A DNA stretch of 64,000 bases from Methanomethylovorans hollandica DSM 15978 (GTDB lineage Archaea > Halobacteriota > Methanosarcinia > Methanosarcinales > Methanosarcinaceae), in contig NC_019977.1 of NCBI RefSeq assembly GCF_000328665.1, forward strand, positions 2,224,011-2,288,010, read 5' to 3'. A program made the position numbers and the translations under genes. Positions 8,931 through 36,574 of the stretch are shown in pieces; within the stretch, counting starts at the first letter, position 1, and each line of letters starts with the position of its first letter. Below the pieces are notes generated by a model. That model ran no database searches and had not been told where the DNA came from. It saw only the letters and a list, made by a program, of their open reading frames with translations.

Positions 8931-10463
8931 ATGGGTGTTACCATAGGAAAGCAAACAAAATTGCTAGTAATGTTGATGATAATGTTTTTCCTGACAGTAC
9001 CTGCAAGTGCAGCGCAGGAAAAGCAAGAGAAGGTCCCCGTTCTGATCAATTTCAAGGAAAAGACCGATACGGAACTTGTAAAAGCTCATGGTGGAAACGT
9101 GAAGCACGAATACACCATTATCCCTGCTGTGGCTGCAGAGCTGCCCCCACAGGCCATCGATGCCCTGTCGAAGAACCCGAAGATAGATTTCATTGAACCT
9201 GACGGCCAGGCTCAGATCCTTGCCGATGAGATCCCCTGGGGTATTGCCAGGATAGATGCGACCGCTGCCCAGTCCGCCGGTGTCACCGGAAATGGCATCA
9301 AAGTCGCTGTTCTGGACACTGGCATCGATTACAATCATCCTGACCTGAAGGCGAATTACCTGGGAGGGTATGATTTCGTGAATGCTGACAACGACCCCAT
9401 GGACGATCACAGCCATGGCACCCATGTCGCCGGCACGGTTGCTGCCCTTAGCAATGACATCGGCGTACTGGGAGCAGCACCCCAGGCAGGGCTGTATGCC
9501 GTAAAGGTCGCCGACAGCTCAGGATCATGTTCATATAGCAATATCATAGCCGGCATTAACTGGGCGGTAAACAACAATGCCAATGTCATTACAATGAGCA
9601 TTGGTGGTACAGCTTCCTCGTCCACGCTCCAGAACGCCTGTAACAATGCCTACAACAATGGCGTGGTACTGGTGGGAGCAGCCGGCAATTCCGGCGGTGC
9701 TGTGATATATCCCGCAGCTTACTATTCAGTAATAGCTGTGTCTGCAACGGATTCGACCAATACAAAGACCTCCTGGTCATGCTATGGTCCACAGGTGGAA
9801 TTTGCAGCACCTGGCTCCAGTATAAAATCCACTATGCCTGACGGCCTGTATGGTTACAAGAGCGGTACTAGCATGGCAACACCACATGTAACAGGTGCTG
9901 TGGCGTTGCTGATGAGCACGGATATTGCAGGCACTGTCCATGATACCAACGGCAATGGCAAATGGGACCCTGCGGAGGTCCGCTTAAGGCTGCAGAGCAC
10001 GGCAACCGACCTGGGTGCCAGCGGCAGGGACAATTACTACGGGTATGGCCTTGTGAACGCCTATGCAGCGGTCAGGGACCTGAGCAGTACACCAGTGGAT
10101 GACCCTGTTGTCACACCTCCTGAGTCATCAACACCTGTTGTGATGTACGTGGGAGAGCTGAGCCTGGAGCAGCAGTCCAAAGTGAGCGGCAAGAACACCT
10201 TTGGCTGGGCTGTGGCCACCGTGCAGGTGGTGGATGCTGACGGCAAGACAATCCCCGGAGCAAGTGTCGCAGGAAGCTGGAGCGGCCTGACAGCAGCAGC
10301 TGTCTCAGGGACCACTGATGCAAATGGTGTTGTAGTGTTCACATCCGCACAGGTGAAAAAGCCCAAGGGCACGCTGACATTCACAGTTACGGGCATCACA
10401 TGTGACGAATACGCATACGACCCAACGCAAAACGCCTACTCTGCAAAAAGCGTCACTTTCTAA
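8931..10463 (+). CDS. Secreted subtilisin-like serine protease
   Basis: This 510-aa protein has a signal peptide (hydrophobic core LLVMLMIMFFLTVPASAA, about residues 11-28), an I9-type propeptide (about 33-95, ending FIEPDGQAQ), and an S8 catalytic domain. The triad is visible as Asp in VAVLDTGIDYNHPDL, His in HSHGTHVAGT, and Ser in GTSMATPHVTGAVAL, all in canonical order. After a Pro/Thr-rich linker near residue 395 comes a roughly 100-aa C-terminal domain resembling bacterial Ig-like folds (TIPGASVAGSW, TDANGVVVF). It is therefore an exported, self-maturing extracellular protease, probably for peptide scavenging or surface-protein turnover. It has its own leaderless-type promoter and terminator. 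Confidence 0.9.
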   Translation: MGVTIGKQTKLLVMLMIMFFLTVPASAAQEKQEKVPVLINFKEKTDTELVKAHGGNVKHEYTIIPAVAAELPPQAIDALSKNPKIDFIEPDGQAQILADEIPWGIARIDATAAQSAGVTGNGIKVAVLDTGIDYNHPDLKANYLGGYDFVNADNDPMDDHSHGTHVAGTVAALSNDIGVLGAAPQAGLYAVKVADSSGSCSYSNIIAGINWAVNNNANVITMSIGGTASSSTLQNACNNAYNNGVVLVGAAGNSGGAVIYPAAYYSVIAVSATDSTNTKTSWSCYGPQVEFAAPGSSIKSTMPDGLYGYKSGTSMATPHVTGAVALLMSTDIAGTVHDTNGNGKWDPAEVRLRLQSTATDLGASGRDNYYGYGLVNAYAAVRDLSSTPVDDPVVTPPESSTPVVMYVGELSLEQQSKVSGKNTFGWAVATVQVVDADGKTIPGASVAGSWSGLTAAAVSGTTDANGVVVFTSAQVKKPKGTLTFTVTGITCDEYAYDPTQNAYSAKSVTF

Positions 10464-10483
10464 GTGAAAGACACTTGATCAGG

Positions 10484-10522
10484 ATCGTATCCTGTACTTC
10501 CAGGATACGATGATCTTTTTTT
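10484..10522 (+). terminator. Strong terminator after the subtilase gene
   Basis: ATCGTATCCTG (10484-10494) and CAGGATACGAT (10501-10511) form a perfect 11-bp stem with a 6-base loop, followed by a T run at 10516-10522. It lies 20 bp after the protease stop codon and upstream of the convergent Fur-family gene. Confidence 0.8.
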
Positions 10523-10557
10523 ATGCCGGAAGAAAAAGGCTTCCTTGAATCTTGCCT

Positions 10558-11001
10558 TTAAGTGTTCTTATCTGCCTGGCATTTTCTGCAAACGCCATGT
10601 ATGTCAAGTCCGAACACGTTCACGATAAAATCTGCATCATCGGATATCCTCGAAATTACCTCTGACAGGAGAGGGTCCTCCCAATCGGCAATGTCGTTGC
10701 ATTTCACACAGATCAGGTGTGCATGAGGCTCCAGATTCGGATCGAATCTCGACTGGCCGTCAGGCAGGTTCAACTCCTGGATAAAACCAAATTCCTTCAG
10801 GACCTTAAGGGTGGCATAGATCGTTGCAAGACTGACGGTCGGATGCGTTCCCCTGATCTCCTGATAGATCCTCTTAGCTGTCGGATGCTCTTTATTATTG
10901 AGCACATATCTGGCGATGGCTATCCTCTGGGGAGTGACTTTTATATTTTTTTCCCTGAAGGCAGTAATTATTGTTTTATCAATATATTGTGAGTGAGTCA
11001 T
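10558..11001 (-). CDS. Fur/PerR-family metalloregulator
   Basis: This 147-aa protein has the Fur architecture: an N-terminal winged helix (VTPQRIAIARYVL, HPTAKRIYQEI, SLATIYATLKVL) and a C-terminal dimer domain with RFDPNLEPHAH. Two CxxC motifs, CVKC and CRKC, form the structural zinc site typical of Fur and PerR. The RFD Asp and nearby His residues occupy the regulatory metal positions; PerR-type proteins use an Asp here for peroxide-sensitive Fe2+ binding, so a peroxide sensor is plausible but Fe-dependent Fur cannot be excluded. It is monocistronic, and a palindrome directly upstream suggests autoregulation. Targets may include the rubrerythrin/fprA group, but this is inference. Confidence 0.88.
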   Translation of the reverse strand: MTHSQYIDKTIITAFREKNIKVTPQRIAIARYVLNNKEHPTAKRIYQEIRGTHPTVSLATIYATLKVLKEFGFIQELNLPDGQSRFDPNLEPHAHLICVKCNDIADWEDPLLSEVISRISDDADFIVNVFGLDIHGVCRKCQADKNT

Positions 11002-11007
11002 AATTAT

Positions 11008-11019
11008 TATTAGTTAATA
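11008..11019. promoter_or_regulatory. Candidate operator upstream of the Fur/PerR gene
   Basis: TATTAGTTAATA is an inverted repeat (TATTA and TAATA arms) starting 7 bp upstream of the start codon at 11001. Its position over the likely promoter fits autoregulation by the Fur-family protein, whose boxes are AT-rich palindromes. It is shorter than a full Fur/PerR box, and AT-rich palindromes arise easily by chance. Confidence 0.3.
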
Positions 11020-11203
11020 GTTTTTTTTGTATAAGGATTTACTCACATGTAAGATTAATATGAAGTAAAGCATTGCTTTATAAGTAGTATATTAGTTTAC
11101 AAATATTACTGCTGCTTTTGAATGATACTTTCATTCATAATCTCAAATGTACCAGTGGAGTTAAAAAAGTGTATTTAGAAAAGAACTCTATAAGGGGTTA
11201 ATA

Positions 11204-11254
11204 ATGAAAAAGTGGAATAAACTCGTAATTTTGGTGTTGATATTTAAAGATTGA
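11204..11254 (+). pseudogene. Stub of a gene with signal-peptide-like start
   Basis: ATG 11204 is preceded by AAGGGG and opens a 16-residue frame, MKKWNKLVILVLIFKD, then TGA. It looks like the start of a signal peptide or membrane anchor cut off just before the IS1-like remnant. It could be a gene disrupted by the insertion; a chance frame is also possible. Confidence 0.3.
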
Positions 11255-11282
11255 TATATAATATGAACTCACATACTTCTGA

Positions 11283-11662
11283 ATGAATTGCCCAAGATGT
11301 AATAGTTCCATTCACAGAAAGAATGGTATAGTCATGGACGTCAACGATACAAATGCCATGATTGTGACTATAACTATTCAGTAGAGATAAAATCGACTGC
11401 TTTCTCTTCTTTTGTTAAAAGACAGGCTTTACAGCTCTATCTTGAATGATTAGGATTTCGCTCAATAGGACGTATATTAGGAGTAAGTCATGTTTCTGTC
11501 CAGAAATGGATAAAGAAGTTTGGTCAGGAATTAGAGGATATGAAGAGTGAAAATGAGAGCGAAATCGTTGAACTCGATGAGATACACCCTACATCGGGAA
11601 CAAAAAAATATTGCTGGACCTGGATTGCTGTTGATAGCTTCACACCCGACTCCTTGTTTTAA
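11283..11662 (+). mobile_element. Degenerate IS1-like transposase remnant
   Basis: The translation begins MNCPRCNSSIHRKNG (zinc-ribbon InsA-like start), shifts frame near 11328, and continues as GRQRYKCHDCDYNYSVEIKS, LGFRSIGRILGVSHVSVQKW and EIVELDEIHPTSGTKKYCW. An in-frame TGA interrupts it near 11447, and the C-terminal catalytic part is missing after about residue 125. These are the N-terminal zinc finger, the helix-turn-helix and the start of the DDE region of archaeal IS1-family transposases. One frameshift, one stop and a truncation make it inactive. No terminal inverted repeats could be assigned with confidence. Confidence 0.75.
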
Positions 11663-11778
11663 GGAATCGCCCGAACATATTTTAACCTTTCTAAATTGTT
11701 CTGCAGCAGACAGAGCTGACAGTGTTCTTACACCAATAATAGCGTAAAAAGATTATTAACATATCAGGACATCATTCA

Positions 11779-31415: not shown

Positions 31416-32798
31416 TCATACCCGGTGTTCTTCCGTAGATCGAGAGCATGATACCTGCCCGGTGCAGGCCGTTGCAAGAGAGGAGATATCCCCATTCTCA
31501 TTTATGATATCAACATGTATGTTGATACCACTTTCTTCAATATAATGACTGATACGCTCAAAAGCATGGTAGATCATTCCGCCATGCGTGATTATAAGAC
31601 ACCTCTGTCCGCACAGGGCATTGAGTATAGAGCGGTCTATAACTCCGGAGGTAATGTCGAGGCGTATGTTGTCCCTCTCGGCTATGAGTTTGCTCCTTTT
31701 GCCCATGGCTCCGACTGTATCCACATCACCGTTGGCAATGAACAACTGCAGGAAATCAGTATCGTGATGATCGGTATCATAGATCATGATGGAGCCTGCG
31801 CGCACATAACGTCTGCTGAGTTCCACTATTGCCATGCAGTCCTCGTGTATATGCAGCACTTTCCCGTTGACTGCCTCCATAGGATAGTTCAATGCGAACT
31901 CACCGTGAAGCAGACCCAGATTAATATAATCTCCTGCTTTGACATCTGGAGACACTTTAACCCACATGAGTTCAGGCTCTTTCAGTATCCTTACCAGGCC
32001 GGGTATATCCTTGGGACAGCCATTAGTCTTGACGAGACTGCGCCTGCGCAGCTCCTCATACACCTCAAGTATCTGGGGCTTTCTCAGATATGCCCTCTGG
32101 AGCAGCTCCTCATTTCTGAAAATGTCCTCAGGTATCCCTTCACCGATCATCTGCTGATTGGTCATGATGAACACATAATCCGCCCACCTGTAAGCCAGGT
32201 CCACATCATGAGTAGAGATGATTATTGTTTTGCCGAAGTAGTTAAGTTCATTCAGTAGGTCCATTACCTCATCCGCACCCACCGGATCAAGATTTGACAG
32301 CGGCTCATCAAGGATGATAACCTCCGGTTCCATGGCAACGATACCTGCAATGGCAACTCTCTTCTTCTGGCCGCCGCTTAAGTGATGCGGAGGTTTTTTC
32401 TTGAGCGGGTTAAGTCCCACATAATCAAGAGTGCTCTGCACCACAGAGGTTACTTTTTCCTTTGAATAACCCAGGTTCGTTGGACCAAAGGCCACGTCCT
32501 GGTAAATGCTGGGTGCAAAAAGCTGATCATCCGAATTCTGGAATACAATGCCTACGTTCTTGCGCAGTTCGCGCAGGGACTTTGCATCATACTTCACAGG
32601 TTCACCATGGAAGAGCACATCCCCTGTCTTCGGGACCAGGGTGCCGTTAAGGGTCAGGAACAGCGTGGATTTCCCGGAACCATTGCGGCCTACAAAAGCT
32701 ATTTTTTTACCCATATCTATCCTGACGCTTACATTATCAAGGGCAATTGTGCCGTCCGGATAACTGTATACAAGATCTCTGGTTTCCAGGATTGTCAT
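31416..32798 (-). CDS. cbiO: Cobalt ECF transporter ATPase CbiO with C-terminal extension
   Basis: The first ~260 residues are an ABC ATPase of the CbiO/EcfA type: [16 protein letters not shown] (Walker A), [15 protein letters not shown] (Q-loop), [15 protein letters not shown] (signature) and [13 protein letters not shown] (Walker B). About 190 further residues follow, with [37 protein letters not shown] and several His/Asp-rich stretches (DTDHHDTDF). Ordinary CbiO is about 280 aa, so this is a fusion with an accessory domain that may sense substrate or regulate activity. It follows cbiQ by 8 bp in the cobalt operon. The extension's function is not known. Confidence 0.88.
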
Positions 32799-32806
32799 GA
32801 TCTACC

Positions 32807-33589
32807 TCAGATAAGAAGGATGTTCCTCGTGGAATAGAAAACTACGAGGACTAAGATAAAATATGCGGAGGTAAGTGCAACTTCGGACCTCTTTATCGGA
32901 CGGTGCTCCTCCAGCAGCATGAACTTGCCATCATAACACCTTGAGTTCATGGAAACATAAAGCTTTTCTCCCTGTTCCCATGCCCTTATGAAAAGAGATG
33001 TAGCCAGCATTCCTATAGACCTGAGAGAAGTCCTGAAATCCTTGTAGCCCAACCTGACAGTTTGGGCATACTTTATGCCCATGGCCACCTCCATGAAGAC
33101 AAAGATATAGCGATACATCATCATGGCTATCTCTATGAAGGAATCCGGGAAACGGGTTGCCTTCAGCACAGAGAAGAGCTCTATCATAGGAGTTGAAAGC
33201 GAAAGGAAAAAAAGACAGGACATACCGCTGATAGTACGTGCAAGCACCACTAAAGCCATGTTCAGACCCCCGGTACTGACCCCAAGCCTATGACCCCACA
33301 GATCAAAACCAAAGACCTCACTACCATTACCTGAAAAGAAAGCAATGATGACTACGCTGATCAGCACGAATCCTGCGGGCGCAGCCAGGATCTTTAAGTA
33401 GAAACTTGTAGGCACCTTACTGAAACGGATGGTTGCAATACCCATACATAGAGCTATTACAAAAGGTGTGACAGGAGAATTGGAAGAAACACCCATAACT
33501 ATGCCGAAAGCCGTTATGGCTATCTTGAGCCAGTTGTTTTTTTCACGCAGGGGGCTGTTAAGGGCGTAATCGTCCAAGATAGATGTCAT
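32807..33589 (-). CDS. cbiQ: Cobalt ECF transporter transmembrane protein CbiQ
   Basis: This 260-aa membrane protein is the T component that couples the ATPase to the substrate-binding units. It has about five to six hydrophobic helices and the coupling motif TSLFIRAWEQGEKLYVSMNS, including the usual AxxxRG-like stretch and a second SRCYDG near the C-terminus. ATG 33589 (MTSILDDYALNSPL) starts the recognisable protein; a longer frame to 33652 is unlikely. It lies 178 bp downstream of cbiN, a gap with a possible terminator, and is followed by cbiO. Confidence 0.85.
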   Translation of the reverse strand: MTSILDDYALNSPLREKNNWLKIAITAFGIVMGVSSNSPVTPFVIALCMGIATIRFSKVPTSFYLKILAAPAGFVLISVVIIAFFSGNGSEVFGFDLWGHRLGVSTGGLNMALVVLARTISGMSCLFFLSLSTPMIELFSVLKATRFPDSFIEIAMMMYRYIFVFMEVAMGIKYAQTVRLGYKDFRTSLRSIGMLATSLFIRAWEQGEKLYVSMNSRCYDGKFMLLEEHRPIKRSEVALTSAYFILVLVVFYSTRNILLI

Positions 33590-33737
33590 AATGTGTCCTG
33601 TATACCTTATTAAATCAACAAAATTTGTTTTTGTAAAAAAGCTCCTTTTCAAGCTGGATTGAAATTTATATTAGATAAGTTTTCCGTTTTGTAATAGCCA
33701 CTTTGGGAAGTATAACAGAAAAGATAAAAAGGATTTT

Positions 33738-33767: not shown

Positions 33768-34058
33768 TTATTGACCTGACTGGTTCTTTCCTCTGTAGTA
33801 CCCAAAGAAGTAACCAATAACTAAGGAACCGATAGCTGCCTGGAGGGCAAAGAGCAGACTTTCAGTTTCCCCACCTGGTGGCTCGAACTTCGGGAAACCC
33901 GGGTCCCAGGCTTCATAATCAGGGTCAATATCTGAGATGAGATCCTCTGCTGCACCATCTGCGCCCCCGAATTCCGACCCAGGATTAGCTGCAAGTGCAT
34001 ATAAGAATTGGGCCACGAAGAGTATTACTATAGCTCCCACGATGTACTCTAATTTCAT
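33768..34058 (-). CDS. cbiN: Cobalt transporter subunit CbiN
   Basis: This 96-aa protein has two transmembrane helices around an extracellular loop with the CbiN signature: EFGGADGAAEDLI, then WDPGFPKFEPPGGETESLLF and FALQAAIGSLVIGYFFGY. CbiN assists metal loading of CbiM in Co-type ECF transporters. It overlaps the cbiM stop by 4 bp (ATGA), so translation is coupled. Confidence 0.9.
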   Translation of the reverse strand: MKLEYIVGAIVILFVAQFLYALAANPGSEFGGADGAAEDLISDIDPDYEAWDPGFPKFEPPGGETESLLFALQAAIGSLVIGYFFGYYRGKNQSGQ

Positions 34059-34762
34059 CCCACAGCCCCCTTAAGCTTATTCACGGCCTCTGATGTGAGA
34101 ACCTTTAGGTTCACAAGCACATCACCCTTTACCTGCACCACATATTTCATTATAAGGGCCGTGAGCGCACCCTCCATAATGGCAAGTGGCACCTGAGTTG
34201 TGGCGAACACCGCTGCAAATGCGGTGAACGAAGACAGAAAACCCGAAACCGTAAGAACACCACCTGCGGGGAAAGCCAGTGCAAGTTGAGTGGATGTCAC
34301 CACATAAGTTACCCAGTCGGCTATTGCAGTAGCCAGGAATATGTTGAGATAAAAGTTCACATTGACCTTTGCAGCTGCCTTGTAGAATGCATAAGCCACA
34401 AACGGACCCAATATACCCATGGATGCAACATTTGCTCCCAGTGTGCTTATTCCTCCATGACTGAGGAACAGGGCCTGATATATAAGGACAATTAGACCAA
34501 GAACAGATGTTATTGCCGGACCGAAAAGCACGGCTGCCATGCCAGTACCTGTAGGATGTGATGAACTGCCTGTGACCGAGGGAAGCTTAAGGGATGAAAG
34601 TACAAAGATGAAAGCTCCGGCCACTGCAAGCAGAGGCACTATCTCCCTGCGTTCACTCACGAGCCTGTTCAACCGATACATACCGAACAAGATTATGGGT
34701 ATGGAGAATACAAACCATAACTGCCACCAGGGTGATGGCATGAACCCTTCGAATATATGCAT
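34055..34762 (-). CDS. cbiM: Cobalt-binding transporter subunit CbiM
   Basis: From ATG 34762 the protein starts MHIFEGFMPSPWW, the metal-binding N-terminus of CbiM/NikM S components, in which His2 is a Co/Ni ligand and free Met1 is required. Six to seven membrane helices follow, with SSHPTGTGMAAVLFGPAI, which carries another conserved His. The longer frame to 34801 would add 13 residues in front of this N-terminus and is therefore rejected; an AGGTGA site supports 34762. Presence of CbiN favours cobalt over nickel. It is the first gene of cbiMN-QO and lies downstream of cbiDE, linking metal uptake to corrin synthesis. Confidence 0.92.
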   Translation of the reverse strand: MHIFEGFMPSPWWQLWFVFSIPIILFGMYRLNRLVSERREIVPLLAVAGAFIFVLSSLKLPSVTGSSSHPTGTGMAAVLFGPAITSVLGLIVLIYQALFLSHGGISTLGANVASMGILGPFVAYAFYKAAAKVNVNFYLNIFLATAIADWVTYVVTSTQLALAFPAGGVLTVSGFLSSFTAFAAVFATTQVPLAIMEGALTALIMKYVVQVKGDVLVNLKVLTSEAVNKLKGAVG

Positions 34763-34820
34763 AATCGTCACCTTCCTATCGTTTTCCAACTGGATAATCA
34801 AGTTAATTTGCTTTAAGTAA

Positions 34821-34976: not shown

Positions 34977-35561
34977 TTAGCGCTGCACCACTAGGAGACA
35001 GTACATGTCAGACTCCGCAAGAGGCGGATTTTGTACTGAACCAACCACTGCCCTTTCTTCAGGATAGCCGATGTTCTCATAAAGGCAGATCTTTGCCTCA
35101 ACACCCATTTCCCGCAACAGATCAGCCACTTCCTTAGAACCGAAGTTCTCTGCGGGTAACAGGAATATGTTCTTTCCCAAACCGACCTCTCTTATGAGAG
35201 CTTCCCTGGCAGGCGATGGATCACGTCCGTGTGCAGTGATAATGGCAAGATGAGACATCTCTACATGAAAACGGGCGCATGAAGCCTGGATTGAGGAAAC
35301 TCCTGTGATCACTTTGTCATTTTCATCGGCGAACTTTCCAAGTCCTGAGAACATGGGATCGCCCGTGGAAAGCACTACAGCATCAGCAGGCAACAGATGG
35401 AGTTCCCTGTAGTTCTTGATGATGTGAGCTTCACAGTTGATGAAGTCCTTCACAAGCTCGATGGACCTGCCTGAACCATATATCACAGGAGCACTACGGA
35501 TAGCTGCAATGGCTTCCTGGGTCAGCATATTGGGACCAACGCCTACACCTACGATGATCAT
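34977..35561 (-). CDS. cbiE: Cobalt-precorrin-7 C5-methyltransferase CbiE
   Basis: This 194-aa enzyme belongs to the tetrapyrrole methylase fold: [20 protein letters not shown] at the N-terminus, [14 protein letters not shown] (SAM binding) near residue 65, and [15 protein letters not shown]. It methylates C5 in the anaerobic cobalamin pathway; the CbiT partner for C15 is not fused here and not in the window. It overlaps cbiD by 4 bp, so the two are coupled. Corrinoid is needed for methyltransferase-based methanogenesis, for example by the enzyme at 45.6 kb. Confidence 0.9.
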
Positions 35562-36574
35562 GCCTTTTCCCCGCTGTCCATGAGCACAGTGCCATCCCTG
35601 TCGACGACCACGACTCTTGCACCATGAGCTTTTTCCACTGCCATATCAAAAGCTTTTTTAAGCCTTTCGTTATCAGGGTCCAGTTCCAGCATCTCCACCA
35701 CCGTGGCATACCCGCTGTCTGCGAGCATATTCGGGTCCCCCCACTTGAGCACAAGACCGGGTAGTCCGCAAATAATAACATCACCCTTTGCAGCCGCTAC
35801 AGCATCGGATATGCGGCTGCCTGCAAGCACCACCGTATATCCAGGGAACAGCATGGTAGAATAGCGTATGCCTATTCTGCCGGTCGTGAGCACTACCTTG
35901 TCAGCGCTGCGTATAAGATCCTCTTTCATCTCGCCCAGATGATCATTCCAGGGTTCCACGAAACCCGTAGTGCCCAGGATGGATATTCCCCCTTCCACAC
36001 CAATGCGGCTGTTCAGGGTCTGCTTGGCAACCTCAGCACCGCGAGGGAGAGATAAAGTTACCTCAGCACCCTGCAGGCCAAGCTCTTCAACGGCTTCAGC
36101 AATAGCTGCCTTTATCTGTTCCATGGGCCTGGGATTGATGGCAGGATACCCTTTCTTTGACTCCAGGCCGTTCCTTGTTACGATACCTATACCCTCGCCT
36201 GCCCGAATAACGATACCTTCAACCTCTCTGGCATCCGCCACGAATTCAAGCCCACGGGTGATATCGGATTCATGATCGTTATATACCTTTACAGCAACTG
36301 CATGACCATTTACAGCCTGCACATCCATCTCAGCCCTCAATCCCACCGGGGTGGGCACAGATAAATGAGAGACAGGTTTACGTAAAGAGAGCACTGCAGC
36401 TTTAGCTGCGAATGTTGCTGTTGTCCCGGTGGTATAACCCCTCCTGAGTACAGAGCCATCGCTTAAGAGAACAAGTCTTCCACTTTCAATGCCTTTTATG
36501 AGCTCGTCCCTGGGCACATTGGAACGCGCAACCCACTCTTCTGGGATCTTGGATTTATTCACCGGATCTATCAT
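35558..36574 (-). CDS. cbiD: Cobalt-precorrin-5B C1-methyltransferase CbiD
   Basis: This 338-aa enzyme methylates C1 of cobalt-precorrin-5B in the oxygen-independent cobalamin route. The CbiD hallmark [20 protein letters not shown] is near residue 60; [18 protein letters not shown] and the Gly-rich [17 protein letters not shown] follow. It precedes cbiE with a 4-bp overlap, and the cobalt importer genes lie next downstream. Length is typical. Confidence 0.92.

Follow-up and report, generated by a model that had tools for sequence, protein, structure and literature searches.

The C-terminal extension of CbiO in Methanomethylovorans hollandica: a remote relative of the sensory module of archaeal DUF7839 regulators that may gate cobalt uptake

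The ATPase CbiO encoded in the cobalt-uptake operon of Methanomethylovorans hollandica carries a C-terminal extension that is, judging from profile comparisons, homologous to the C-terminal sensory module (DUF7839) of archaeal MarR-like winged-helix regulators. We propose, with a probability of roughly 0.6, that the extension serves as a ligand sensor in the cytoplasm, shares its ancestry with the sensory half of these regulators and gates CbiO in response to an anionic, perhaps corrinoid, ligand. The homology to regulators supports the role of a regulatory sensor, which the initial annotation of this DNA had suggested for the extension and to which the conservation in relatives also lends support. 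The relationship found is to the sensory half of such regulators and not to a known non-regulatory domain.

That a cobalt pump and a family of regulators have one sensor module in common is a testable claim, and it replaces the vague notion of an "extra domain". Once a ligand is found for either the pump or the regulator family, studies of the other could build on it, and one could tell whether methanogens control their ECF metal transporters through the product.

The extended CbiO, its operon and its distribution

In the 64,000-nucleotide stretch of DNA analysed here (the window), the open reading frame of cbiO lies on the minus strand at 31416-32798, starts with ATG and encodes 460 residues, whereas the best-matching full-length models of ordinary CbiO have only 269-290 positions. 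Like an ordinary ECF ATPase (TIGR01166), the protein has an ABC ATPase core with the Walker A motif and the LSGGQ signature (residues 1-225; 32124..32798; TIGR01166, PF00005), followed by the C-terminal helical part of ordinary CbiO (residues 226-277; 31968..32123; CbiO model and alignment), and it is encoded in a cbiMNQO operon. TIGR01166 scores 249.2 bits over residues 13-202, above its cut-off of 211.8 bits, and among the NCBIfam models of CbiO the best one, 277 positions long, covers residues 1-254. The alignment, from which this upper boundary was taken, shows that the usual helical part reaches to about residue 277, so that the extra part consists of residues ~278-436 and a tail of residues 437-460. 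The reading frame, the models and the alignment confirm an earlier claim that the 460-residue CbiO has an additional C-terminal domain. The domain is real, and the start at about residue 265 and the length of about 190 residues first given for it are to be replaced by these boundaries.

Within the extension, residues ~278-333 (31800..31967) are predicted to be a beta-barrel part, recognised from strands in an AlphaFold2 model and from an alignment with the barrel of the regulators by way of the bridging sequences described below. Residues 334-436 (31491..31799) make up an alpha/beta domain, a remote relative of DUF7839, and residues 437-460, which together with the stop codon occupy 31416..31490, are an unconserved tail according to identity and pLDDT; all these parts are on the minus strand. 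AlphaFold2, run on a 30-row alignment of the extension, predicted barrel-like strands (model residues 20-84) and the alpha/beta domain with a mean pLDDT of 73.6 and a pTM of 0.55, the block means being 83-92 over model residues 81-160 and pLDDT falling under 50 from about residue 440 of CbiO. A second model, of the alpha/beta domain alone, begins at residue 340, is without most of the first strand and has a mean pLDDT of 90. When residues 265-460 were searched alone, none of the Pfam and NCBIfam models gave a match with an E of 1 or less.

The gene order on the minus strand is cbiD, cbiE, cbiM, cbiN, cbiQ and then the extended cbiO. The first gene, cbiD (35558..36574; PF01888), is followed by a gene for a tetrapyrrole methylase (34977..35561; PF00590), which we take to be cbiE. 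Next come cbiM for the S component (34055..34801; PF01891, TIGR00123; the NCBIfam match begins at residue 14), cbiN (33768..34058; PF02553) and cbiQ for the T component (32807..33652; PF02361, TIGR02454), the real start of which probably lies downstream of the TTG. With cbiM, cbiN and cbiQ as its neighbours in the window, the protein belongs with the ATPases of ECF cobalt transporters. Four-base overlaps occur between cbiM and cbiN (window 34055-34058) and between cbiD and cbiE (35558-35561), as in translationally coupled operons. Methanogens need much cobalt for their corrinoid methyltransferases.

The same context recurs in other genomes. Among the loci, 95 have longer flanks (L031-L105 and L136-L155), although some are short contigs or contig ends. 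In these, cbiQ was found near the extended CbiO in 91, cbiM in 89 and cbiN in 87; without two distant matches (L066 and L090), the counts are 89 for cbiQ and 87 for cbiM. CbiN is described, in an excerpt of PMC2667541, as specific for Co uptake.

The extension was detected in 45 of 60 related genomes (E <= 0.001). In the window's own family it is present in 34 of 37 rows, its own genome counted, and absent from three (G017, G030 and G032). Compared with 24 relatives from outside the genus, the ATPase core has a median identity of 72%, the barrel of 54%, the alpha/beta part of 53% and the helical part of 46%; the tail, in 18 rows, has 5%. Far from being absent in close relatives or poorly conserved, the extension is conserved beyond chance. 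Its nearest named relative among the matches listed is a Methanomethylovorans MAG, with 97% identity over the extension, in a listing from which the window's own genome may be missing. A scan of the phylum with the 30-row extension profile matched 175 of 392 genomes, which is an upper figure for CbiO because weak matches may be regulators.

The alpha/beta half is the more widespread one, in that many of the matches listed outside the family span only this half. Of 22 CbiO rows added from other genomes, 14 have next to no barrel, with no more than 4 of its 49 columns filled; two have about half of these columns filled and six have 42 or more. The CbiO of a MAG named as Methanomicrobiales (L105) is without the barrel, and that of a MAG named as Methanofastidiosia (L099) has most of it. 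A profile of the alpha/beta domain matched 191 of 195 loci, from which rows of at least 85 residues were thinned to 65 diverse rows under 75% identity. At two CbiO loci of family f9 (L344 and L345), a small search with this profile gave no ORF better than E 0.01, and we therefore claim no extension for these two.

Relationship to the DUF7839 regulators

Of the 65 diverse alpha/beta domains, 30 are matched by the Pfam family DUF7839 (PF25211) with an E of 1 or less, the best of them at 2e-16. The window's own CbiO has no PF25211 match at E up to 1 (the Pfam cut-off is 27 bits), and it is for this reason termed a remote homologue of DUF7839 rather than a member. Its link to the family, as far as profiles can tell, needs intermediates.

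Such intermediates came from a non-circular test, in which a profile was built from 24 unique sensory parts of regulators only and compared with 154 unique CbiO extensions (from 194 frames already recruited), the 154 reversals of these and 5,726 other ORFs. Seven of the 154 extensions (L155 and L176-L181, the bridging CbiO) matched over about 150 residues, the barrel included, with E-values from 6e-32 to 2e-27; eight passed 1e-6, 11 passed 1e-3 and 70 matched at E up to 1, a level reached by none of the reversed extensions and none of the other ORFs. The "(I/V)P...GGS" stretch of the regulators is kept in the three bridging CbiO that were printed. Profile-profile comparison connected the sequences stepwise: the seven-row bridge matched the regulators at 99.8% (E 4e-29, 157 columns), the 30-row whole extension matched the bridge at 98.0% (E 1.5e-13, 159 columns), and the alpha/beta domain, with no bridging row in its profile, matched the regulators at 91.5% (E 9e-7, 85 columns). 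Compared directly, the 30-row extension and the regulators gave a weak match (12.2%, E 0.0024), and four control families (HEM4, TP_methylase, B12-binding and MptE) reached at most 5.2%.

When 71 CbiO domains and 24 from regulators were placed in one tree (109 columns, no outgroup), all CbiO fell on one side of a branch (100/100), which makes a single fusion the simplest reading; the sensory module was apparently joined to CbiO once.

The regulators have the same module of barrel and alpha/beta parts, which the bridging CbiO share with them over about 150 residues, but in them it is fused to a DNA-binding domain instead of an ATPase and the chemistry of its loops differs, as in the Glu found at position 368 in 24 of 24. 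Most of the DUF7839 frames listed are about 250-320 residues long, the size of a regulator, and all 27 regulator frames collected align across the full regulator profile. The sole one that was scanned against Pfam (L343, 275 residues) is of the MarR type at its N-terminus and matches DUF7839 at residues 172-270. PF25211 was found in 154 of 196 phylum genomes sampled and in three of 14 control genomes, those of Methanocaldococcus jannaschii, Haloferax volcanii and Methanosarcina acetivorans.

The genome of M. hollandica has one DUF7839 regulator (G000:C2:429206-429508). This winged-helix protein is encoded between the genes of a calcineurin-like phosphoesterase and of a PF09824 ArsR-type regulator (L329:4136-5980), and the gene order around it was also read in L337 and L330. 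In 15 regulator loci of about 10 kb, CbiM, CbiN, CbiQ, CbiD and CbiE had no match (E up to 1e-3). The ligand of the family may therefore have nothing to do with cobalt, and sensing of corrinoids need not be common to all DUF7839 proteins. Near the regulators, the only genes noticed with a link to metals or cofactors are a FecCD-type permease about 2.6 kb after one of them (L338:7986-8933) and hypF near another (L343:1531-3738); the FecCD family also holds the B12 permease BtuC. We know of no ligand for DUF7839, and a full-text search of the open-licence literature returned no paper on it.

Predicted pocket, gating and alternative roles

Seven residues of the alpha/beta domain are invariant in 64 CbiO rows, the bridge being left out: G363, M365, G366, V386, T404, M408 and R415. 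In the same rows, residue 370 is Lys in 62 and Arg in two, residue 388 is Asp in 62, residue 389 is Lys or Arg in 62, and residue 368 is Arg or Lys in 51; in the seven bridge rows, residue 368 is Ser. We read the conserved glycine-rich loops as resembling a pocket, the charge of which seems to have been re-tuned toward an anionic ligand, since the conserved basic residues R/K368, K370, K/R389 and R415 would suit it better than they would bare Co2+. Because of the operon in which the gene lies, we favour a corrinoid or an intermediate of corrin synthesis. We infer that the module binds a ligand of this class and gates the ATPase, the sign of the gating presumably being inhibitory.

How gating could work is suggested by the stoichiometry of the transporter and by two other importers. 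CbiMQO is reported, in an excerpt of PMC7689651, to be a 1:1:2 complex with two CbiO, so that a pair of modules would be suspended beneath the dimer of ATPases. In the proposed mechanism, the two modules would be placed under the CbiO dimer of CbiMNQO, beyond the helical C-terminal part. A ligand that reports cobalt or corrin sufficiency would bind to the GxMGx(R/K)xK, GVIDK and TxGGM loops, and the ligand-bound modules would then hold the ATPase halves apart and slow cobalt uptake. This movement of the CbiO halves is proposed by analogy with MetNI and with ModABC of M. acetivorans, which according to an excerpt of PMC10710835 close when substrate is bound to the pair of C-terminal domains that the ATPase carries.

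Importer ATPases with a fused regulatory domain are thus already known; for CbiO, none was described in the open-licence papers searched. The C2 domain of MetN and the C-terminal domain of ModC are, as far as the same excerpt goes, small regulatory domains that act by transinhibition. MetNI and ModABC are not ECF transporters, and scans of Pfam and NCBIfam models gave no family match between the extension and these domains. The analogy to ModC and MetN drawn in the initial annotation would, in our view, be one of a like way of working and not of common family.

Our best guess is feedback gating by a corrinoid or another anionic metabolite. A more specific proposal is an ECF metal transporter with built-in feedback, in which the module would bind a corrinoid or late corrin intermediate in the cytoplasm and stop cobalt uptake, while its fold, with loops tuned differently, would act as the effector domain in a widespread family of archaeal transcription factors; we put this forward tentatively, with the odds against it.

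Alternatively, the extension might dock a partner or stabilise the dimer and bind no small molecule; it would then link transporter and corrin synthesis, for instance by passing cobalt to a chelatase. Its position after the helical part of the ATPase would fit such a role, as would the presence of cbiD near the extended CbiO in 42, and of cbiE in 39, of the 95 loci, but loops that are rich in glycine and conserved over 65 diverse rows look like a pocket, and the homology is to the sensory part of DNA-binding regulators. We regard a docking module as unlikely.

A direct Co2+ sensor or chaperone, in which His/Asp-rich and Cys-containing stretches bind cobalt and gate transport, was the role first imagined for the extension. 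The gene does lie within a cobalt-uptake operon, and the stretches exist, both DTDHHDTDF and ALCGQRCL being present in the window's protein. However, His occurs at either HH position in only 2 of the 65 diverse rows, both Cys occur in 13 and either Cys in 28; of the 64 CbiO rows, 16 have Cys at 396 and 24 at 400, and the residues that are invariant are Gly, Met, Val, Thr and Arg. Because the residues of the supposed metal motifs are not conserved, we reject metal binding by these stretches as a feature of the family, and a cobalt sensor or chaperone is quite improbable.

Structure prediction gave the barrel and alpha/beta parts, and fold searches with the models were not decisive. With the first model, the best VIA-align Z score was 8.4 (2.9 A, 90 residues), near the level that the tool calls common. 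The top 31 rows, matched in their first domain, are all methyltransferases of the tetrapyrrole-methylase type, and the next, unrelated row has a Z score of 5.8. The domain-only model, which lacks most of the first strand, reached 6.8. The best Foldseek match had an E of 0.025 and its first row was a designed protein; PDB sequence searches with the extension gave nothing at E below 0.4. These 31 rows, and the rank of HEM4 as the best of the control families, would speak for an enzyme fused to the transporter, akin to the tetrapyrrole methylases or to uroporphyrinogen-III synthase. Such an enzyme domain is very unlikely given these fold scores and profile comparisons of only 5.2% for HEM4 and 0.9% for TP_methylase.

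A motif had hinted at HemD. The comparison with HemD (PF02602; hhalign 5.2%) has an E of 0.0074, and one of the 65 rows matches PF02602 at E 0.05. For the B12-binding family (PF02310), hhalign gave 0.1% (E 0.44), and no match was present in the Pfam scan of the window's protein or among the 25 of 27 families listed for the diverse rows. With profile comparisons of 5.2% at most, HemD, tetrapyrrole methylase, B12-binding and MptE are improbable as the family of the extension, and the weak resemblance to the methyltransferase fold was kept as a rival only.

Variant loci and the second CbiO

Two loci named as Methanosalsum (L066, 1877-6579, and L090) have lost the usual cbiMNQ beside the extended cbiO. 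A divergent pair of CbiM and CbiQ (26-28% identity) lies beside it on the opposite strand; Pfam confirms both proteins in L066, and the pair presumably resembles a nickel-type system. An extended CbiO beside such distant partners indicates that the module can go with more than one S component. Other loci also deviate from the usual arrangement. L056 has cbiD and cbiE and no match to cbiM, cbiN or cbiQ; L041, where the contig begins just ahead of cbiQ, has no cbiM or cbiN; and L098, L101 and L104, recruited through partial matches, lack cbiM, cbiN and cbiQ alike. A fusion of CbiQ with CbiO had been suggested by long open frames, and the window's CbiQ matched none of the five frames of at least 600 residues tested, even at E 10, so that we claim no such fusion.

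The genome of M. hollandica has two CbiO above the TIGR01166 cut-off, the 460-residue protein and a 297-residue frame (G000:C2:522304-522858; L346:4568-5446), which adjoins a gene that we read as CbiQ-like. The shorter frame stops just past the helical part and is without the module, which only one of the two paralogues of M. hollandica therefore has. Short and long CbiO frames recur together in many of the genomes listed. Genome G413 has a second extended CbiO (L153:4529-5872) accompanied by cbiQ only, with no match to CbiM or CbiN in 11 kb. In one genome of the window's family (G377), two extended CbiO lie about 4 kb apart (L152:5245-6582 and 10402-11715), and the copy adjacent to cbiQ is the more divergent of the two.
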